A DNA stretch of 64,000 nucleotides from Natronomonas pharaonis DSM 2160 (GCF_000026045.1 NC_007426.1:1736001-1800000); one strand, 5' to 3'; counted from the stretch's first letter, positions 16,802 through 63,647 are shown. Translations and numbers: made by a program. Notes: generated by a model not told the origin, from the letters alone.

Positions 16802-17084
16802 CCGTCTCGTTGGACGCCTGTTTGGCGGGTGTGAGGGGGGTTTCTGAACCGTCGTCAACTCCGATGCCGGTTGCGGGCGCTGTCACTATCGTAGCTGCAC
16901 TGCGGCCCCGTCTGTGACGCATCGAAGGTGATGAGACAGCTGACATTATGCTTGGTAGTACACCGTACGATTGGGTGCGCAAAAGTGCTATCGGGAATCT
17001 TTCCGTTCGTCAGGTCAGTATCCGGCGGCACAACACGCGTGCCGGGACAGCAAAAACGATGTGTGAACGGCGAGAGTGGCACGT

Positions 17085-18602
17085 ATGAGCGAGCAGCGCA
17101 AGTCCCGGCGTGCGTCGCTCGCCACTATTGTCCGCGGTGGCTCGCTGTACACCGTCGGCAAGGTCGTCTCCGATGTCGGCGAGTTCCTGTTGCATCTCCT
17201 TGTTTCGCGATGGCTTGGCGCTGGGCTGTACGGGCTGTTCGCCTACGGAAAGACGCTCGTCTTCACTGCGCTGCTGCTTACCAACCTCGGTAGCGACAAG
17301 TCCATAGTCCGCTATCTTCCGAAATACGAGTCGAATCCGGAAAAGCGCCGGTTCGTCCTCGCGCTCGCATGGGTTACTTCCCTCGGTGGTGGATTCGCCG
17401 TCGCGAGCGGACTGTTCGTCTTCGCACCGACGGTGGCAGGGGTGACACTCGACCAGCCTGGGTTCGTGCCTGTTCTCCGACTGTTTGCGGTGGTTCTCTT
17501 CGTCGATACTGCTGCAAACCTGCTGTATGCGACGTTTCGGGCGCTTGAGGTGATCGAGTACGAGGTACTCAGCAAGCGGCTGCTTAAGCCGGTGTTGCGC
17601 GTACTGGCAGTTGGGTCGGCAGTACTCATCGGCGGAACCATCTACAGCGTTGTCGTCGCAATGGTTGTCGCCAGCGTAGCGACACTTGCAGTCGCAGGGT
17701 ATCTGTTTGTGACACGGTTGGAGATACGGCCGCGGCTCCGTTCGCCCGCGGGAACGCGTGAGACGGTCAGAGACTACTACAACTACTCGCTACCGTTGAC
17801 GGCCAAAGACGCGGGCACAGTCATGCAAAGCCGTGTCGACGTGCTGATGGTCGGCGTCTTCCTCTCCTCGACGGCGGTCGGCGTCTACAACGTCTCGGTG
17901 TTGCTTGCCAGCGTCCTGTACGTTCCGCTATTGGCGGCTAATCAGCTGTTTGCACCCGTCATTTCACGGCTCCAATCGCAGGGACGAACCGCCGACATGC
18001 AGGCGATTTACCGGGCCGTAACGAGGTGGATATTCACTGCAAGCCTGTTTTTCGCGGCCGTGCTCGTGGTCTTTCGCGTCGAGTTGCTGGGGCTGTTCGG
18101 CCCGGAGTTTACCGCCGGCACGACCGTCTTGGTCCTCTTTGTTGGTGCCCAACTCTGTAATGCGGCCGTCGGCCCCAGCGGCGACCTGCTGATGATGACC
18201 GACCACCAATACGCTGTGATGCTCAACGAGTGGGTCTTCGGCGTCGCCAACGTCGTGCTTACCGTCGTTTTTATCCAGTTCTTTGGCTTCGTCGGCGCGG
18301 CGCTGGCCTCCGCAGGCGTGCTCCTCGCGCGGAACCTGACGAAACTCACAGAAGTCTGGTATCTCGAACGGATGCAGCCGTACGGGCGGGCCTTCGGCAA
18401 GCCACTTGCCGCTGGCGGCGTCGCCGCTGCGGGAATGGTCGGTACGCACGCCGCCACAGCGGCAGCCGGTTTCGGGGCGTGGACGGGCGTGGCTGTCGGT
18501 GTCGCTGTCGGCATCGGCCTCTACGCCGGTGGGCTCTGGATGGCTGGGTTCGAGGAGGTAGACTACGAGCTCTACGCCCAGCTAGTCGGGTCGGGGCAGT
18601 AG
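17085..18602 (+). CDS. Polysaccharide-biosynthesis flippase (Wzx/MOP family)
   Basis: 505 aa from ATG 17085 (MSEQRKSRRASLATIVRGGS). Fourteen or so membrane segments of the MOP superfamily, with SRWLGAGLYGLFAYGKT near the N-terminus and PLTAKDAGTVMQSRVDVLMVG before helix 7. Wzx-type proteins flip lipid-linked oligosaccharides, and archaeal relatives act in surface glycan or N-glycan assembly. An FkbM-type methyltransferase follows within 100 bp, consistent with surface glycan modification. Confidence 0.88.
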   Translation: MSEQRKSRRASLATIVRGGSLYTVGKVVSDVGEFLLHLLVSRWLGAGLYGLFAYGKTLVFTALLLTNLGSDKSIVRYLPKYESNPEKRRFVLALAWVTSLGGGFAVASGLFVFAPTVAGVTLDQPGFVPVLRLFAVVLFVDTAANLLYATFRALEVIEYEVLSKRLLKPVLRVLAVGSAVLIGGTIYSVVVAMVVASVATLAVAGYLFVTRLEIRPRLRSPAGTRETVRDYYNYSLPLTAKDAGTVMQSRVDVLMVGVFLSSTAVGVYNVSVLLASVLYVPLLAANQLFAPVISRLQSQGRTADMQAIYRAVTRWIFTASLFFAAVLVVFRVELLGLFGPEFTAGTTVLVLFVGAQLCNAAVGPSGDLLMMTDHQYAVMLNEWVFGVANVVLTVVFIQFFGFVGAALASAGVLLARNLTKLTEVWYLERMQPYGRAFGKPLAAGGVAAAGMVGTHAATAAAGFGAWTGVAVGVAVGIGLYAGGLWMAGFEEVDYELYAQLVGSGQ

Positions 18603-54144: not shown

Positions 54145-55464
54145 ATGTCCAGTGACCCATCCGAGCCGACCGAAACGATCTGTCCGTACTGCGGCGTCGG
54201 CTGTGGCATCAAAATAACACAGGACACGGACGACCCTGGCGACGTGCAGTTCATGCCGTGGGGAGAAGCGCCCGTCAACGAGGGCCGCGTCTGCATCAAA
54301 GGGGGTGCAGCGACAGAAGTCATCGACCACGAGGACCGTCTCACTGAGCCGCTGATCAAGGACGGCGAAGAATTCCGTGAAGCCTCTTGGGAAGAGTGCT
54401 ACGAGTATATCGTTGCTGAACTCGAACGGATTCGCGACGAGTACGGTCCCGACGCGATGGGCTTTTTCGGCTCCTCGAAGACGATGAACGAGGGGAACTA
54501 CCTCTTCCAGAAGCTGGCGCGGCGGTACGGGACGAACAACGTCGACAACTGCACCCGGATGTGCCATGCGTCGACAGTGTGGGCGCTCCGGACGAGTCTC
54601 GGGATGGGTGCGATGACAAACAGCATGGAGGATATTCGGGAGTCGGCCGACCTGCTTTGGATTCAGGGCGCGAACCCGGGCGAACAGCACCCGATCGCGA
54701 CCAGTCAGTATCTCCGACAGGCCGCCCTCGACGGGGCGACCGTCATTCAGGTCGACCCTCACGCGAACGGAACGACCGAGTCCCTCGAAGTCGAGGCGAC
54801 CGACCGCCACCAGCATCTTCAGTTGAATCCGGGCACCGACATTCCGTTGCTGAACGTCGTCCTCAAGACCATCCTCGACCACCATGCAGAACATCCAGAG
54901 GACGGCTGGGTCGATGCGTCGTTCGTCGAGAGCCGCACCGAAGGCTTCGAAGACCTGCAAGCGACACTCGACGGCTTCGACGCGCAGGCGGCGGCCGAGG
55001 AGTGTGGCGTCCCGCTTGAAGACATCCAACGGGCGGCAAAAAAGTACGCTACGGCGGACAACGCGGCCATCTTCACCGGGATGGGGATGAGTCAGCACGC
55101 CTGCGGCGTCGACAACGTCCAAAACGAAATCAACCTCGCACTGATTACGGGCAACGTCGGCCGGCCCGGAACGGGCATCAACCCCCTGCGTGGTCAGAAC
55201 AACGTCCAGGGGACCTGTGACGTGGGCGTGATGCCGAACGTCCTCCCGGGCTACCAGCTCGTTGACGACGATGCGGCTCGCAGCGCCGTTGAAGAAATCT
55301 GGGGCTTCGAGATTCCGGACGCCCCCGGGCTGACAAACGTCGAACTCTCCCACGAGTTCGGCGACTCTGTGCATGGCCTCTACGTCATGGGCGAAAACCC
55401 CGTGATGAGCGAACCCGACGCCAACCGCGTCGCCGAACGCATCAAGGACCTCGAATTCATGGTC
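54145..55464 (+). pseudogene. fdhA: Molybdopterin formate-dehydrogenase alpha-like gene, 5' part, interrupted by TnpB element copy 2
   Basis: 440 codons before the element. 4Fe-4S site C13, C16, C20, C50 (CPYCGVGC... CIKG). C140 in NCTRMCH occupies the position of the catalytic selenocysteine 140 in E. coli FdhF, followed by a conserved His. Molybdopterin-binding features follow. Excising 55465-56940 joins this part in frame to the downstream half for 714 aa, close to the 715 aa of FdhF. Unless the element is excised, the C-terminal molybdopterin-binding domain is lost and the protein would end after element-derived residues at 55548. Confidence 0.85.
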
Positions 55465-55473
55465 GTGAACTCA

Positions 55474-55496
55474 CCCCGGGGGGTCAAGCCCCGGGG
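55474..55496. repeat. Right-end hairpin of TnpB element copy 2
   Basis: CCCCGGGG, then GG, TCAAG and CCCCGGGG. The same architecture as copy 1, but the stem is CCCCGGGG instead of CCTCGGGG/CCCCGAGG, so paired positions have changed together. Positioned just beyond the 3' end of tnpB as expected for the guide-RNA scaffold end. Confidence 0.75.
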
Positions 55497-56722
55497 CTTC
55501 CTGCTTCAACGACGCGCTTTGCACTCACAGCCTCCCGGTGAGGCGTGAGCGTAGGGAGCGCAGTCTGCACAGGCGTTGATTCGGAGCGTCCCGCCCCTAA
55601 CTGCTTGAGTCCGCGATAGAGAATATTCTTCGCCGCGTTGAGGTCGCGGGCTTCCGTATGGCCGCACGCTGGACAAGAGTGTTCGCGTACCCAGATTGGC
55701 TTGGCTGTTTCGACACCACACACAGCGCACTCTTTGGTTGTTCCTCCCGGCTTCACCGTTTCGACGTGTGTGCCGTGTAGGTCAGCCTTGTACTCCAGCA
55801 GTTCGATAAACTGCGACCACGCGGCATCCTGCTTGTTCTTGGCGTTCTGACTGGCTTCCAGCATCGGTTTCACATCCAAGTCTTCGACAGCTACAACATC
55901 GTGCTCTGTGACGAGCCACGTCGTCAACTTGTGCTGGTAGTCTCGCACCTTCCGTTTGATTTTTCGTTTCGCTTGGGCAACCTTCTGACGCTGTTTCTCC
56001 CAGTTGGCGGAGCCGTGTTCTTTCCGGTCAAGTTTCCGCTGTTCGCGTGCGTAGCGGTCGTACTCATCGGACAGGTCGAGTGTATCAACGGACAGGTTCT
56101 CCGAAGTGTGGATGTAGCTGGTGATGCCAAGGTCAACGCCCACGCAGTCCTCGGCTTCAATCTCACTGAGTGGCGGTTTCTCGGGTGTGTCTTCGACAGT
56201 GGTGACGAGTGAGACGTACCATTCGCCAGTCGTCTCTTTTTTGAGGATAACCTCGTCAATGTCCTCTTCTGGTGGCACGTCGCGGTCTGCTCGGATTTTG
56301 AACCAGCCAATCTTTTCGAGTCGGAGTCGCACGAATCGGTCGTCGCCCGTGTTGTAATCCACGTTGAAGCGACTTGCCTGATTGTACGACACTGACCGAA
56401 ATTCGCCTGCTCCTTGCCACTGCAACCGCCCAACATCGTAGCCTTCGTTTCGGCGTTCTTGCAGCGTCTCTATGTCGCTGTGAATTTGGCTGATAGCCTG
56501 TTGTGCGGCGTGTTGTGACGGGTCGGCAAAGGTCGGCCACTGGTCTGTCCAGTCTTTGAGTTTGCTGTGTTGGTCGTAGTCAGATGGCCTGTCGTTGTAG
56601 TCTGCGTTGTAGTAGTCTCGGACAGCGTGATTACGAATCTGCCGGAGAATGTCGATGTGCCGCCACGCTTCGCTTGCCACGTCGTCGGGCAGGTACGCGC
56701 GGAAGCGAAGCGTGTGTTTCAT
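55484..56722 (-). CDS. tnpB: TnpB-family RNA-guided nuclease / IS1341-type transposase
   Basis: 412 aa. Catalytic acids D197 (GVDLGI), E280 (VAVEDL) and D360 (ARDLNA) and zinc-ribbon C332/C335, C350/C353 are intact. It is related to copy 1 but clearly diverged across the N-terminal region. The 3' end reads into the right-end hairpin, the expected guide-RNA region; the guide would then be the host bases just below 55465, inside fdhA. Preceded by five bases from the stop of the AbrB-like gene, so likely co-transcribed. Confidence 0.94.
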   Translation of the reverse strand: MKHTLRFRAYLPDDVASEAWRHIDILRQIRNHAVRDYYNADYNDRPSDYDQHSKLKDWTDQWPTFADPSQHAAQQAISQIHSDIETLQERRNEGYDVGRLQWQGAGEFRSVSYNQASRFNVDYNTGDDRFVRLRLEKIGWFKIRADRDVPPEEDIDEVILKKETTGEWYVSLVTTVEDTPEKPPLSEIEAEDCVGVDLGITSYIHTSENLSVDTLDLSDEYDRYAREQRKLDRKEHGSANWEKQRQKVAQAKRKIKRKVRDYQHKLTTWLVTEHDVVAVEDLDVKPMLEASQNAKNKQDAAWSQFIELLEYKADLHGTHVETVKPGGTTKECAVCGVETAKPIWVREHSCPACGHTEARDLNAAKNILYRGLKQLGAGRSESTPVQTALPTLTPHREAVSAKRVVEAGSPGA

Positions 56723-56727
56723 CGGTG

Positions 56728-56856
56728 TTAGTCAAGTTTTTCCACAGTGAGTTTCAACTGGTCGCCTTCTTCCAGATTAAGCCCGTCTCGGACTTCTTCT
56801 GGGATTGTAACGACACCGCGCTGTCGCATCTTCGGGTAACATTCCATCTGACCCAT
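56728..56856 (-). CDS. AbrB/SpoVT-type DNA-binding domain protein carried by the TnpB element
   Basis: 42 aa (ATG 56854-56856, TAA 56728-56730). KMRQRGVVTIPEEVRDGLNL followed by EEGDQLKLTVE is the swapped-hairpin AbrB fold core, as in MazE/SpoVT-type antitoxins and regulators. It lies five bases upstream of tnpB, inside the element. TATA-like CTTTATACTG on the minus strand sits about 20-30 bp upstream. Might regulate tnpB. Copy 1 lacks it. Too short to be found by length-based gene calling. Confidence 0.8.
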   Translation of the reverse strand: MGQMECYPKMRQRGVVTIPEEVRDGLNLEEGDQLKLTVEKLD

Positions 56857-56900
56857 ACCGTATTATACTGTTTGAATCAGTATAAAGCTGTCGGCTTCAA

Positions 56901-56921
56901 CCCCGGGGTCAAGCCCCGGGG
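56901..56921. repeat. Left-end hairpin of TnpB element copy 2
   Basis: CCCCGGGG, TCAAG, CCCCGGGG, a perfect 8-bp stem. Same loop as all other element ends in the window. Confidence 0.75.
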
Positions 56922-56940
56922 CAGTCGCCTTGTACCGCCT

Positions 56941-57765
56941 GTACAGGATATCTTCATGACCGAGACGGCAGCATATGCCGACGTGGTACTCCCGGCAACG
57001 ACTTGGGCCGAGCGGGACGGCACGGTCACCAACACCGACCGTCGCGTCCAGCGAATGCGAGGGGTCGAGAAAGTACACGAAGCAACGAAACACGACTTCG
57101 AAATCCTCTCTGCGGTCGGGACACGGCTGTTCGGCGACGGCTTCGACTTCGACGACCCAGCCGAGATATTCGAGGAGCTCCGGGCGGTCTGTCCCATCTA
57201 TCACGGAATGGCCTACGACCTGCTGGGCGAGACCGGACTCTACTGGCCCTGTCGTGACCCCGGCGACGAAGGCGACCCGTACCTCTACGAAGACGAGTTC
57301 GAAACCGACACCGGGCGCGGGACAATCGAGGGCGTCACTCACCAGCCGCCGAAGGAAACGCCGGACGACGAGTATCCGCTCGTCCTGACGACCGCCCGAA
57401 TCGAGGAACACTACAACACCGGCACGATGAGCCGGCGGTCGCCGACGCTGAATCGGCAGGTTCCGGAGAACTTCGTCGACATACACCCGAACGATGCGGA
57501 CCGGTACGAAATCGAGGACGGCCAACAGGTCGTACTCCGCTCCCGGCGCGGCGAGATTACGCTCACGGCGCAGGTCACCGAGGACATCACGGAGGGGACG
57601 GTGTGGACGACGCCACACTTCGCGTCGGCACCCGCGAACGTGCTCACGAACGACGCACTTGACGAGCGGGCGAAGATTCCTGAATACAAGGCGGCAGCCG
57701 CCGAAGTGGAGGTGGGAATCGAACCCGCCGAGCCGGACGGCGGAACGGAACCGGCCGAGGACTGA
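56941..57765 (+). pseudogene. fdhA: Molybdopterin formate-dehydrogenase alpha-like gene, 3' part
   Basis: 274 codons plus stop. VQDIFMTETAAYADVVLPAT, then AERDGTVTNTDRRVQRMRG, is the region preceding the molybdopterin-dinucleotide binding domain; the domain itself is EYPLVLTTARIEEHYNTGTM, DIHPNDADRYEIEDGQQVVL and EGTVWTTPHFASAPANVLT. It lacks its own start here. In-frame continuity with the 5' part after element removal shows a single ancestral gene. C-terminal tail EPAEPDGGTEPAED is acidic. Confidence 0.85.
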
Positions 57766-58485: not shown

Positions 58486-58545
58486 TGTGTGGGTCGACAC
58501 GGGGGCGCGGTTTGAGGGTTGTGGCAACCTGAGCGGAGAATGTGT

Positions 58546-58564
58546 GGGACCGGATTTGAACCGG
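58546..58564. repeat. Duplicate of tRNA-Leu 3' segment (possible attachment-site scar)
   Basis: GGGACCGGATTTGAACCGG, identical to 58629-58647 inside the tRNA-Leu T arm. The copies are 83 bp apart and the 64 bases between are not tRNA-like. Typical of a partial tRNA duplication left by an integrated element or by repeat-mediated rearrangement. Confidence 0.65.
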
Positions 58565-58623
58565 AGGAAGACACGGACCTGCTCTTTCCTTCGTCTTCTC
58601 GCTTCGCTCGAAAACTCAGTCAG

Positions 58624-58708
58624 TGCGCGGGACCGGATTTGAACCGGCGGACCCCTACGGGACAGCGTCCTAAGCGCTGCGCCTTTGGCCTGGCTCGGCA
58701 ACCCGCGC
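58624..58708 (-). tRNA. tRNA-Leu (TAG)
   Basis: 85 nt, a long type II tRNA without encoded CCA. Acceptor GCGCGGG pairs with CCCGCGC; anticodon arm CAGCG-CTTAGGA-CGCTG gives TAG; variable arm CCCGTAGGGG; T arm CCGGTTCAAATCCGG. Reads Leu CUA codons. Minus strand, between tpiA-like and TFB-like genes. Confidence 0.95.
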
Positions 58709-58758
58709 TCGGCCCATCCTACTGGAGTCGGCTAAAAATAGCTGTCGGGTCGGAACGG

Positions 58759-58764
58759 TTTATA
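58759..58764 (+). promoter_or_regulatory. TATA box of the TFB-like gene
   Basis: TTTATA about 27 bp upstream of ATG 58789, predicting an essentially leaderless transcript, and supporting that start. Confidence 0.6.
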
Positions 58765-58788
58765 CGGCTGGAGGGCGAGCAGGCGTGT

Positions 58789-59097
58789 ATGTATCGTGCC
58801 CGCGACCACGTCGAAAACGAGCAGTGGCTGGCAGCCATCGACGACGCCGCCGAGCGGCTCGACCTCGGGAGCGAGGCGAAGTCACGGGCAACGGACCTGT
58901 TTCTGTCGACGGTACCCGAGGAGGACCGTTCAAAACAGGCCGTCGTCGCTGCCAGCCTCTATGCCGGCGCGCTCATTGCGGGCGACCAGCGCTCGCAGTC
59001 GGACGTCGCCGATGCGGTCGGCGTGTCGCGGCTAACCGTGCAGAACCGCTGGCGGGAGCTGCTGTCCGAGGCGGGGCTTGAGCCGCCGCAGTGGTAA
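58789..59097 (+). CDS. Single-cyclin-repeat TFB-like (TFIIB-family) protein
   Basis: 102 aa from ATG 58789 (MYRARDHVENEQWLAAIDDA). RATDLFLSTVPEEDRSKQAV and VAASLYAGALIAGDQRSQSD followed by VADAVGVSRLTVQNRWREL form one cyclin-like repeat of the TFIIB core, including the helix-turn-helix used for BRE contact. There is no N-terminal zinc ribbon and no first repeat. It may be a regulator that mimics TFB rather than a full initiation factor. Confidence 0.85.
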   Translation: MYRARDHVENEQWLAAIDDAAERLDLGSEAKSRATDLFLSTVPEEDRSKQAVVAASLYAGALIAGDQRSQSDVADAVGVSRLTVQNRWRELLSEAGLEPPQW

Positions 59098-59187
59098 CCG
59101 GCGGGTAGTGGTGGCGGCCAGTTGTTTCGGCGCTCGTCCGAACCTAATGGAAAAGGCTTATGCGCGTTTTGACAGTGGGTCTGACCA

Positions 59188-62061
59188 ATGAGTCAGCGGT
59201 TAGATGAGTTCGAAGAGCGGCTCGAAGCCTACGAGTCGCAAATCGACACCGTATACCGACTGTATCACATCCCCGTTCTCGCTGTCCTCATGGCGTTCAT
59301 GCTGTGGGTTCGGATTCGAGACTACGGGCGACACATCGCGGCGGATGGGACCGTCCTCTACCGCGGGAACGACCCCTACTACCACTACCGGACGACAAAC
59401 TACGTCCTGGAAAACTACCCGTTCAATATGCCGTTCGACCCGTGGACGAGCTTCGATACCGGCACCCGGGTCGGCCAGTTTGGGACCATTCTCGACCAGC
59501 TTGTTGCCACGGCGGCGCTCATCGTCGGCCTCGGCTCGCCGTCCGAGGAGACGGTTATTCTGACGACGCTGTTTTCGGGGCCGGTGCTGGCAGCGCTGTG
59601 TGCAATTCCGCTGTACTTCATCGGGAAGCGTCTCGGTGGCCGCTTCGGCGGTATCATCGCTGTCGTCGTTTTGGCGCTGACAGCTGGACAGTTCCTTACC
59701 CGGAGTGTGGCCGGCTACTACGGCCACCACGTTACTGAAGTGCTGTTTACGCTCATTGCGCTGCTCGTTGGGATGAAGATGGTCGCCGTCGCCCAGCGCG
59801 AAAAGCCGATTTACGAGTTCGTCCGCACCCGCGAGTTCGACCTGCTCCGTGAACCGGTGCTGTGGGGTGCAGCCTTCGGTGTGACGCTGGTCGTGGCGAT
59901 ACTAAACTGGCCGCCAGCGGTCTTCCTCTTCGGCGTCTTCGCGGCCTTCCTGTTCGTCCAGCTCTCGCTGGAGTTCATCCGGGGCCACAGTCCGGACCAC
60001 ATCGCCATCCCCTCGGTCGTCGCGATGGTCGCCACGGCGGTGCTGTTGCTGCCATTTATCCAGACGACGGAACTGACAGTCACCGACTACTCGGTGTTCC
60101 ACTTGGCGTTCGCGCTCGGCGTCGCGGCCGGCGCTGTTGTGATGGCCGGGGTCGCGCGTCTCTGGGAGCGCCGCGATATCGCCCGTGCGGCGTATCCGGC
60201 CGGCGTCGTTGGCGTCGGACTCATCGGCGTCGCTGTCATCGCTGTTGCCCTCCCCAGCGTGTTCGACTTCCTCATCTCACAGGTTGAGCGGGTCGCGGGC
60301 TTCGGTGCGACAGACACCCGAGCGACGATTGGTGAGGCGCAGGCCCCCGATAGCCCGGTCAGCTTCTTCTTTGCGAACTACGGGCTCGGCATCTACACGG
60401 CGCTTGCTGGCTTTGGGCTGCTGCTCTACCGTGTGTTCTCCACGAAGCGTCCGCAGGCTGAGTACCTCCTCATCGCCGTCTTCTCGGCGTTCATGCTCGC
60501 CTTCACGCTCACACAGGTACGGTTCGACTACTACTTCGTTATCGCGGTCGGTGCCGGCAACGCCTATCTCGTCGGTTGGGTCTACCAGTACGTCGACCTC
60601 GATAACGTCCGTCAGGACTTTACGAACATTCAGCCCTACCAGATTCTCATCGTTATCGCCATCCTGTTCGTCATCGCCGGCGTGCCGCTGGTGACTGGCG
60701 CAACACTCGCGACGGCGGATGACGCGTCGCAGCCGGGCGAAATGGAACAGTGGACCGATAGCCTCGATTGGCTCTCCGAGGAAACGCCCGAACCCGGGGC
60801 GTACGGAACGGGTGATGACCCGCGGCTTGACTACTACGGCACCTACGAGCCGACCGACGACTTCGAGTACGAGGCCGGCGAGTACGGCGTCCTGTCGTGG
60901 TGGGACTACGGCCACTATATCACTACCCGCGGCGAACGGATTCCGGTCGCTAACCCGTTCCAGCACCACGCGACCGAGTCCGCCGACTTCCTGCTTGCCG
61001 ACGACGAGGACGAGGCACTCGACCTCCTCGATGAAAACCACGGCGATGGTGAGGGCGTCCAGTACGTGATGGTCGACTACCAGCTCGGCTACGCCGGCAC
61101 GCAGAAATACGGCGCACCGACGGCCTTCGAGTCCGAACACGACATCAGCGACGGCGATGTCGGCATACAGGTTATCAACCCCGAGACCGGCGAATTCGTC
61201 TACGGGGCACACACACAGCGCGGCTACGACAGTATGCGGGTCCAGCTCTACCAGCACCACGGGAGTGCACAGGAGCCAGCAAGCTTCACGCTCCAACTCG
61301 GTGAATACGACGAAGCAAGTGGTATTGCGACGATTCCGGAAGGTGCACAGCCCGATGACCTCATACAGGAGCACGCAAGCCCTGAAGAGGCCCGTGAAGC
61401 CGCCCAAGCGCCGAACGTCATCCACGGCGGCGTTCTCGGGCAGCCGGGCGAGCGGACGGAAGCACTTGAACACTTCCGACTCGTCCACGCTGGCGGTCCG
61501 GTTCAGCCGTCGATGTTCGAGCTGCTCATGACACAGCAGGTCGGGGCCGGCGACCAGTGGGTCAAGACGTTCGAGCGCGTTGACGGCGCGACCATCGAAG
61601 GCACCGGCCCTGCGGAAAGCGAAATCCAAGCGGCCGTTGAGATAGATGATGGTACTGGCGAAGCGTTCACCTACACCCAGTTCGCCGAAACCGACGCTGA
61701 CGGGAACTTCGAGATGACGGTCCCGTACGCGACAACCGGCTACGATGAGTACGGCGTCGAAGAGGGGTACACCAACACTGACGTCCGCGCAAACACCACC
61801 TACCAGTTCATCGAGATGGAGGAAGGAATGATCGCTGAAGCCGATGTCTCCGAGGCGCAGGTCATCGGCGAGGACGACTCGCCGGTCGCAGTCGAGATGG
61901 AGCCATTCGAAGAGTCCGACCTCACTGACCCTGCTCCGGACGGCGATGTTACCGCACCCCCTGAAGAGGACGCAGCCGATGAGGAGATGGTCGCCGGTTC
62001 GGTAGACGGTGATGAGACGGCTGACGGAGAAACGGGCGACGACGAGACGGCCGAAGAGTAG
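59188..62061 (+). CDS. aglB: Archaeal oligosaccharyltransferase AglB (STT3 family)
   Basis: 957 aa. About 13 membrane segments in residues 25-510, with DPYYHYRTTNYVLENYP (catalytic DxD-like EL1 region) near the N-terminus, then the soluble domain. WWDYG at residues 571-575 is the signature, in LSWWDYGHYITTRGER. The C-terminal 60 residues are acidic (EEDAADEEMVAGSVDGDETA). It transfers lipid-linked glycans from dolichyl phosphate to Asn in N-x-S/T of S-layer and other exported proteins. Followed after five bases by a DUF368 gene. Confidence 0.96.
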   Translation: MSQRLDEFEERLEAYESQIDTVYRLYHIPVLAVLMAFMLWVRIRDYGRHIAADGTVLYRGNDPYYHYRTTNYVLENYPFNMPFDPWTSFDTGTRVGQFGTILDQLVATAALIVGLGSPSEETVILTTLFSGPVLAALCAIPLYFIGKRLGGRFGGIIAVVVLALTAGQFLTRSVAGYYGHHVTEVLFTLIALLVGMKMVAVAQREKPIYEFVRTREFDLLREPVLWGAAFGVTLVVAILNWPPAVFLFGVFAAFLFVQLSLEFIRGHSPDHIAIPSVVAMVATAVLLLPFIQTTELTVTDYSVFHLAFALGVAAGAVVMAGVARLWERRDIARAAYPAGVVGVGLIGVAVIAVALPSVFDFLISQVERVAGFGATDTRATIGEAQAPDSPVSFFFANYGLGIYTALAGFGLLLYRVFSTKRPQAEYLLIAVFSAFMLAFTLTQVRFDYYFVIAVGAGNAYLVGWVYQYVDLDNVRQDFTNIQPYQILIVIAILFVIAGVPLVTGATLATADDASQPGEMEQWTDSLDWLSEETPEPGAYGTGDDPRLDYYGTYEPTDDFEYEAGEYGVLSWWDYGHYITTRGERIPVANPFQHHATESADFLLADDEDEALDLLDENHGDGEGVQYVMVDYQLGYAGTQKYGAPTAFESEHDISDGDVGIQVINPETGEFVYGAHTQRGYDSMRVQLYQHHGSAQEPASFTLQLGEYDEASGIATIPEGAQPDDLIQEHASPEEAREAAQAPNVIHGGVLGQPGERTEALEHFRLVHAGGPVQPSMFELLMTQQVGAGDQWVKTFERVDGATIEGTGPAESEIQAAVEIDDGTGEAFTYTQFAETDADGNFEMTVPYATTGYDEYGVEEGYTNTDVRANTTYQFIEMEEGMIAEADVSEAQVIGEDDSPVAVEMEPFEESDLTDPAPDGDVTAPPEEDAADEEMVAGSVDGDETADGETGDDETAEE

Positions 62062-62066
62062 AGTAA

Positions 62067-63044
62067 ATGAGCGCCACGCCCACAGGCGCCCGCGCGTGGC
62101 TTGCGGTGTATCTCAAGGGCGTCTGCATGGGCGCGGCAGACACTGTCCCCGGCGTCTCGGGCGGCACTATCGCGGTTGTACTCGGCATCTACGAGCGGCT
62201 TATCGCTGCGCTGACATCGCTTGACCCGAAAGCGGCGACGACGCTACGGGAGATACACACCGCAAACGGCCGGGCGCGGCTGGCGGCAGAACTTGTCCGT
62301 ATGGACGTCCCGTTTTTGCTCGTGCTCGGTGCCGGCGTGCTCTCAGCGGCCGCGACGGTTGCGACGGCAATGAACGTCGCCGTCACGCAGTATCCTGCGC
62401 CGACGTACGCCTTCTTCTTCGGTCTCATCGCCGCATCGGCTGTCGTGTTGTACCGATATGTCGACGCGGGGACGCCGGGACGGCTGCTCGCGGCCGGTGT
62501 CGGCTTCGTGTTCGCGTTCGTGGTTACCGACCCGTCGCTCGCTGGCGACATGCCCGCGACCGCGCCGATGCTGTTTGTCGCCGGCGCGATTGCGGTGTCG
62601 GCAATGGTACTTCCCGGCGTCTCCGGGGCGTTTCTATTGCTCGTGTTGGGTCAATACGAGTACGTCAGTGGGATTCCACGGCGGTTCGTCGAAGGATTGC
62701 TGTCCGGCGGCGGCGAGACCTTCATCGAGGCCGCGGTCGCGTTCGGGGTCTTCCTCGGAGGTGCGCTTGTCGGGCTGTTTACGGTTGCCTATGCCGTTCG
62801 TGCGGCACTCAAGCGGTATCGACAGGCGACGCTCGTCTTCCTCGTTAGCCTGATGGTGGGGGCGCTCCGTCTGCCGGTCCACGAGATGGCCGTCGGCGTT
62901 GAGACGCGGCCGTTCGATATGGCGGTGCTCGGTATCGACACGGTGCCGACACCGCGTTCGGGCGCTATCGTCGCTGTTGCTGCCGCCTTGGGGGTTGCTG
63001 CAGTCATGGTACTGGACCGGTACACCGAAGACCTACAATACTAA
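62067..63044 (+). CDS. DUF368 family polytopic membrane protein
   Basis: 325 aa, about nine membrane segments. The conserved repeat motifs are present: GAADTVPGVSGGTIAVVLGI near residue 25 and VLPGVSGAFLLLVLGQYEYV near residue 180. DUF368 proteins in bacteria (PopT) were shown to move undecaprenyl phosphate across the membrane. It begins five bases after the aglB stop, so an equivalent role in returning dolichyl phosphate after N-glycosylation is a strong hypothesis for this archaeon. Confidence 0.92.
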   Translation: MSATPTGARAWLAVYLKGVCMGAADTVPGVSGGTIAVVLGIYERLIAALTSLDPKAATTLREIHTANGRARLAAELVRMDVPFLLVLGAGVLSAAATVATAMNVAVTQYPAPTYAFFFGLIAASAVVLYRYVDAGTPGRLLAAGVGFVFAFVVTDPSLAGDMPATAPMLFVAGAIAVSAMVLPGVSGAFLLLVLGQYEYVSGIPRRFVEGLLSGGGETFIEAAVAFGVFLGGALVGLFTVAYAVRAALKRYRQATLVFLVSLMVGALRLPVHEMAVGVETRPFDMAVLGIDTVPTPRSGAIVAVAAALGVAAVMVLDRYTEDLQY

Positions 63045-63068: not shown

Positions 63069-63647
63069 ATGTCTTCCCGTCCGACGCTGCAGGCGCTTGC
63101 GGCCTGCGTCGTCGTGTTTCTCCTCCAGCAGGCGGGCGGTGCCGTCGGGCTCGGCGATGCGGTGTTCGCGCTGGCGCTGCCGCTTTCGTCGCAGCCGTGG
63201 ACGCTCGTCGTCAGCGTCTACGCTCACGGCGGCCTCACTCACCTGCTTGCCAACGCCGTCGCACTCGTCCTCATCGGCCCACTCGTTGCCCGCGTTACCA
63301 CGCCAGCCCGGTTCCACGCGTTCTTCATTATCACGGGCGCGCTCGCTGGCATCGCACAGGTGCTCGTACTCATGCCGTTCGGCGGCGGTGCGGTGCTCGG
63401 CGCGAGCGGGGCCATTTTCGCGCTGTTCGGCTACCTACTCGTCGGCAACCGGGGAACCGGCCGTCTGCTGTCGGTGGTCGCGCTCGGAACCCGTGGAAAA
63501 CTCGTTGTGCTCGCTGTGCTCGCTGCGCTGCTCACAGCAGCGACCGCAACGCCGGGGGCGGCGCTTGTCGCCCACTTCGTCGGGTTCGTTCTCGGGGCCG
63601 CGGCCGGCGGCTCTCGGCTGTTGCATACGTCCGGTTCGGCCGGCTGA
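63069..63647 (+). CDS. Rhomboid family intramembrane serine protease
   Basis: 192 aa, six helices. Catalytic Ser S113 in VLGASGAIFALF, catalytic His H169 in LVAHFVGFVLG, and the oxyanion-associated HLLAN (H58-N62) are all present. It cleaves transmembrane substrates in the membrane; in haloarchaea a rhomboid mutation was reported to alter S-layer glycosylation, which would fit the neighbouring aglB. It starts 24 bp after the DUF368 gene. Confidence 0.9.
   Translation: MSSRPTLQALAACVVVFLLQQAGGAVGLGDAVFALALPLSSQPWTLVVSVYAHGGLTHLLANAVALVLIGPLVARVTTPARFHAFFIITGALAGIAQVLVLMPFGGGAVLGASGAIFALFGYLLVGNRGTGRLLSVVALGTRGKLVVLAVLAALLTAATATPGAALVAHFVGFVLGAAAGGSRLLHTSGSAG

Follow-up and report, generated by a model that had tools for sequence, protein, structure and literature searches.

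In nearly all families of haloarchaea the gene for the oligosaccharyltransferase AglB is followed, on the same strand, by a gene for a predicted membrane protein of the DUF368 family (PF04018, COG2035), to which the bacterial undecaprenyl-phosphate translocases PopT and VCA0040 also belong. Arguing by analogy with these, we consider it likely that the haloarchaeal protein is a PopT-type transporter which returns dolichyl phosphate (Dol-P), the by-product of AglB, to the inner leaflet of the membrane. The return of the lipid carrier across the membrane after archaeal N-glycosylation is a step that is not settled, and the DUF368 gene is a strong candidate for this missing recycling step. A family known from bacterial cell-wall recycling would thereby be brought into an archaeal pathway with eukaryotic parallels. 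Since the gene is coupled to aglB in so many families, encodes a member of a carrier-transporter family and, in Haloferax as a model genus, lies at the edge of the agl cluster, the recycling step becomes directly testable.

The aglB–DUF368 pair of Natronomonas pharaonis

The window, that is, the whole stretch of DNA that was analysed, comprises 64,000 nucleotides of the genome of Natronomonas pharaonis DSM 2160 (NC_007426.1:1736001-1800000). Four of its features concern us here:

59155-59164 (+): TATA-like sequence GGCTTATGCG, found by inspection about 25-33 nt ahead of the aglB start codon
59188-62061 (+): aglB, archaeal oligosaccharyltransferase (STT3/AglB), 957 aa, WWDYG at residue 571
62062-62066 (+): intergenic spacer from aglB to DUF368, 5 nt, AGTAA
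62067-63044 (+): DUF368/PF04018 gene (PopT / VCA0040-type), candidate polyprenyl-phosphate transporter, 325 aa, intact

The first protein matches the Pfam models STT3, AglB_core-like and AglB_L1, as a full-length oligosaccharyltransferase does, and by its score against NCBIfam TIGR04154 (889 bits, cut-off 450) together with its WWDxG motif it is an AglB. Its stop codon TAG occupies 62059-62061 and the DUF368 ATG begins at 62067, so that the gap between the genes is exactly 5 nt. The preliminary description of this DNA had placed DUF368 directly after aglB at a spacing of five bases and had taken this to imply co-expression. The placement is borne out, with both genes identified by profile and on the same strand, and co-expression is well supported as probable by so tight a same-strand coupling. 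A spacer of this length is too short to hold a promoter or a terminator belonging to the DUF368 gene. Judged by eye, the TATA-like sequence is compatible with a leaderless transcript that begins at aglB. In the whole 2.75 Mb genome the gene after aglB is the one PF04018 member.

On the 3' side of DUF368, and on the same strand, lie a rhomboid gene (63069-63647) and then a gene for RNase P p30 (from 63702). A larger conserved operon including these two was considered and rejected, since neither was found in the neighbourhood of aglB at the other linked loci.

The DUF368 protein and its relatives

The protein matches PF04018 at 202.5 bits (cut-off 26) over model positions 1-226 of 246, and Pfam now describes this family as undecaprenyl phosphate translocase-like. 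Against the NCBIfam PopT / VIBCH equivalogs NF052563 and NF052564 it scores 80.8 and 171.9 bits, both under the cut-off of 400; it thus belongs to the family but falls outside either named bacterial subgroup. When 87 archaeal members were aligned and compared with 66 members from a genome scan (mostly bacterial), the residues common to bacteria and archaea proved to be intact in the N. pharaonis protein: D25, P28-G32, T34, G40, Y42, G90 and G119, and further along P183-G187, Y197, G232 and L259. Two of these stretches, P28-G32 and P183-G187, are PGVSG motifs, one in each of two homologous halves, and the same twin repeats occur in PopT and VCA0040. Comparison of the profile of the N-terminal half with that of the C-terminal half (97.7% probability, E 1.6e-12, 114 columns) reveals an internal duplication.

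The AlphaFold2 model of the protein is all helical (mean pLDDT 92.1, pTM 0.87) and predicts a polytopic, all-helical membrane fold. No significantly similar structure was found in the PDB, by sequence or by fold, so the predicted fold stands without comparison to a solved family member. BacA was discarded as a structural relative; its sole showing had a meaningless score (E 1.5).

What is known of the activity of such proteins? According to Sit et al. (2022; PMC9876793), the DUF368 protein of Haloferax volcanii (HVO_RS12060) at least partially complements the delta-vca0040 mutant of Vibrio cholerae. The same study describes DUF368 as enriched in Halobacteria, connects it with halophiles and with fitness under sodium and alkaline conditions, reports its conditional redundancy with DedA in bacteria, and raises dolichol phosphate, with reference to DedA, as a possible wider substrate. 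According to a review, DUF368 and DedA bring undecaprenyl phosphate back to the inner leaflet, and their loss leaves it on the outer leaflet (PMC12826051). The lipid-carrier role that the preliminary description had assigned to DUF368 is in this way well supported, by analogy, through the family match and the Haloferax complementation, and the N. pharaonis protein too would be expected to translocate a polyprenyl phosphate.

The setting differs from that of PopT and VCA0040: the host is an archaeon with a dolichyl-phosphate carrier and without peptidoglycan, and the gene is coupled to that of an oligosaccharyltransferase. The HVO_RS12060 study, as far as its available part goes, is about peptidoglycan and alkaline fitness in bacteria and makes no mention of aglB or of N-glycosylation (PMC9876793). 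In the literature searched, which did not extend to the original PopT paper (doi 10.1038/s41586-022-05587-z), we found neither a publication linking DUF368 to aglB nor a glycosylation phenotype of a DUF368 mutant. Since a lipid-carrier activity of archaeal DUF368 had already been suggested by the complementation, what is new here is the class-wide tie to N-glycosylation.

Conservation of the pair in Halobacteria

We searched 194 haloarchaeal genomes of at least 90% completeness, from 65 genera and 10 families, with the PF04018 and TIGR04154 profiles, and called DUF368 immediately downstream when it lay on the same strand as aglB with a gap of less than 600 nt between the HMM matches. By this definition DUF368 follows aglB immediately in 125 genomes, and in 8 more it shares the strand of aglB and lies within 3 kb of it. 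A first count placed the pair apart in 57 genomes and left four with a missing entry; one of these four (G002) has its DUF368 elsewhere (C1:1205609), so that both genes occur in 191 of the 194 genomes and are apart in 58. At least one of the separated cases (G161) is probably due to a contig break, with aglB at the end of a 10.5 kb contig and DUF368 at the beginning of a different one. Wherever the two are immediate neighbours (125/191), DUF368 is downstream and on the same strand, and on these figures a chance adjacency is ruled out. The arrangement is not unique to the genome in which it was noticed, and the observation is stronger than the preliminary description could know.

Linked pairs occur in nine of the ten families and in 46 of the 65 genera, a conserved location in agl clusters. 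How specific is this position? With one AglB locus taken per genus, the gene at +1 is DUF368 in 41/65, while no other family reaches more than 3 at that position; the next commonest neighbour of aglB is a GT2 glycosyltransferase at -1 (33/65). At +2 no family exceeds 5 of the 46 linked genera. The flanks thus turn over across families while +1 stays constant, and the pair is kept as its surroundings change. On the upstream side agl-type genes are frequent, among them GT2, GT4, sulfatase-like, Wzx-like and sugar-nucleotide genes. Among 49 linked loci, in which the gaps are minimal estimates because the first possible start codon was used, the stop-to-start gap is at most 20 nt in 25, and 11 show an overlap of 1-4 nt.

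In Haloferax both genes are present in 15/15 species. Fourteen of these have the pair on one contig, and in every one of them DUF368 follows aglB on the same strand at a distance of 0.3-2.6 kb. In the species examined with a gap of about 2 kb, the intervening gene is in the opposite orientation and encodes an AglM-type UDP-glucose dehydrogenase. HVO_RS12060 comes from a genus in which the DUF368 gene adjoins either aglB itself or the aglM next to aglB. The agl cluster as described runs from aglJ to aglM (PMC5867893), which puts DUF368 at its edge in this genus. Halobellus rufus and one other genome (G030) still have the aglM-like gene beside DUF368, with aglB elsewhere or not found in the fetched region.

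Unlinked copies, loss and replacement

If the pair is so widely kept, what has become of DUF368 where it is broken? At least one DUF368 is present in 192 of the 194 genomes, and genomes without a linked copy have an unlinked one. In a tree of 107 DUF368 proteins the linked copies group broadly by family. A single clade (support 98/99) unites 31 unlinked copies belonging to families f1, f3 and f8, and to it belong the unlinked copies of the sampled f1 genomes and of most f3 genomes. The linked order in f3 is aglB-DUF368-c12-c7-c6; several unlinked f3 genomes have aglB-c12-c7-c6, with DUF368 cleanly gone. Some genomes (e.g. G005 and G025) keep both a linked and an unlinked copy, and displaced copies of the linked type are found in G029, G054 and genus g18. 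This pattern of loss and replacement fits a needed function that another locus can supply.

Two genomes are without DUF368. G021 (1.9 Mb, 98% complete) is the only one of the 194 to have AglB without DUF368, and it has two DedA genes. G186, a fragmented assembly of 180 contigs, has neither AglB nor DUF368.

The context of the unlinked f3 copies is itself often conserved. Among six such loci (L133, L146, L154, L160, L169 and L182) an amidohydrolase-like gene precedes DUF368 in most, and a GT2 glycosyltransferase gene followed by a methyltransferase gene lies on the opposite strand.

DUF368 and DedA beyond the pair

STT3/AglB is widespread in archaea. DUF368 was found in 105 of the 296 genomes of a phylum sample and was absent from the other 191, and among control archaea Methanosarcina, Sulfolobus and Methanocaldococcus have STT3 without DUF368. 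In the tree the methanogen copies are separate from the haloarchaeal ones. STT3 is present in all 41 genomes with methanogen-type DUF368, in none of them adjacent, so that the argument from linkage holds for Halobacteria. In five genomes of family f28 STT3 is 12-16 kb from DUF368 on the same strand; the surroundings of DUF368 in two of these are mostly unrelated to glycosylation, and the distance may be coincidental. An NDP-sugar epimerase-like gene occurs in 13 of 20 methanogen loci (L186-L205) within the 13 kb fetched around DUF368, often as the divergent neighbour, and is possibly a second link to glycans. In a Thermoplasmata MAG (L274:198-6855) the genes for AglB, an AMMECR1-like protein, a dihydroorotase-like protein and DUF368 are consecutive and share a strand; this is an isolated hint that aglB and DUF368 may be close to each other beyond Halobacteria as well.

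DedA (UptA, PF09335) belongs to a different Pfam family from DUF368 and is likewise implicated in polyprenyl-phosphate recycling. DedA/VTT proteins were found in every haloarchaeon checked (68/68), usually as several paralogues per genome. Redundancy with DUF368 is therefore likely, and an argument that DUF368 is required because DedA is absent fails.

A proposed return of the spent carrier

AglB regenerates Dol-P directly, since its carrier is a monophosphate. The substrates of haloarchaeal AglB being Dol-P-linked glycans, the product is Dol-P itself, the form that the DUF368 family handles in bacteria, and a phosphatase step is unneeded. On our reading, AglB would move the glycan onto Asn and leave Dol-P in the outer leaflet; DUF368, as a multi-spanning transporter of the PopT/VCA0040 family, would carry it back to the cytoplasmic leaflet for reloading by the Agl glycosyltransferases. 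We infer that Dol-P is the natural substrate, that transport is inward, and that AglB is the main source of the Dol-P so returned. In Haloferax the glycans are built on Dol-P and their translocation is poorly understood (PMC4335974, PMC3871713); neither of these papers mentions carrier recycling.

The preliminary description had gone further and proposed DUF368 as the missing lipid-carrier flippase of archaeal N-glycosylation. This stands for DUF368 as a candidate for the return of uncharged Dol-P and as, probably, a dedicated haloarchaeal route of carrier return. It does not extend to the flipping of charged glycan lipids, for which AglR/Agl15-type and UPF0104 proteins are the candidates. Nor does it extend to all archaea: with DedA in all haloarchaea checked, and with DUF368 absent from about two-thirds of the phylum sample, including many archaea that have AglB, a role as the sole or universal archaeal flippase is unlikely. 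The ubiquity of DedA, the 191 phylum genomes without DUF368, the 58 separated haloarchaeal pairs and the single genome G021 are to be counted against our reading.

Does DUF368 serve AglB in particular, or Dol-P-dependent reactions at large? A protein that returned Dol-P from all of them (AglS/Dol-P-Man, the low-salt glycan, exopolysaccharide, glycolipids) would work by the same mechanism as the one we prefer and differ in scope; linkage to aglB would then reflect N-glycosylation as the biggest consumer and not dedication. We rate its chances at somewhat under even. The low-salt glycan of H. volcanii is attached from Dol-P without AglB (PMC3871713), the unlinked clade lies away from aglB and in several f3 genera adjoins a GT2 gene, and the epimerase-like neighbours in methanogens point the same way. 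On the other hand, aglB is the closest and most conserved partner of DUF368, with overlapping codons in several genera.

A second possibility, which we think rather unlikely, is that DedA does most of the Dol-P recycling in haloarchaea and that DUF368 is a partner needed at high sodium or alkaline pH, as in V. cholerae. The conditional redundancy of the two families in bacteria (PMC9876793) would agree with this, as would the general presence of DedA in haloarchaea and the two DedA genes of G021; the near universality of DUF368 in Halobacteria and its tie to aglB would not.

Could the adjacency be inherited gene order, or an operon of convenience, with DUF368 engaged in an unrelated tolerance of salt or pH? 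The link of DUF368 with sodium, alkaline fitness and halophiles, as given by Sit et al. (PMC9876793), and the 58 separated pairs would allow it, but both flanks change across families while the pair stays, and at least one DUF368 is retained in all but two genomes, of which the 180-contig assembly also lacks AglB. We regard it as improbable.

That DUF368 might instead flip glycan-charged Dol-P outward to feed AglB is the least credible of these alternatives: DUF368 adjoins the gene of an enzyme that uses the charged lipid, and the mechanism of translocation is described as unknown (PMC4335974), but the bacterial members act on the uncharged monophosphate (PMC9876793, PMC12826051), Wzx-like genes adjoin aglB in several loci, and the Wzx-like AglR and Agl15, proposed as the charged-lipid flippases of haloarchaea (PMC4335974, PMC3871713), together with UPF0104/MprF-type proteins (PMC3871713, PMC5898192), are the N-glycosylation membrane proteins put forward for sugar-charged lipids and the outward direction, in contrast to the return of free carrier by DUF368.

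More speculatively, aglB and DUF368 may be an ancestral halobacterial module, in which AglB was co-expressed with a dedicated transporter for the return of Dol-P, perhaps in a physical complex that handed over the spent carrier, and in which some lineages replaced the linked transporter by a second DUF368 lineage. We offer this elaboration tentatively and would not expect it to hold in full.

Other features of the window

Just upstream of aglB, 58519-59097 (+) encodes a short protein, possibly a reduced TFB-like regulator, which has one TFIIB-type cyclin repeat and a weak helix-turn-helix match. A Wzx-like polysaccharide flippase gene at 17067-18599 (+; 118 bits), some 40 kb from aglB, suggests another glycan locus in the window. 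A gene for a molybdopterin oxidoreductase (formate dehydrogenase alpha-like) is present in two parts, 54145-55548 (+) and 56584-57765 (+). Judged from translations only, it is apparently split by a TnpB/IS605-type reading frame on the opposite strand (55484-56722, -), and a similar GVKPRG stretch is found at both edges of the split.
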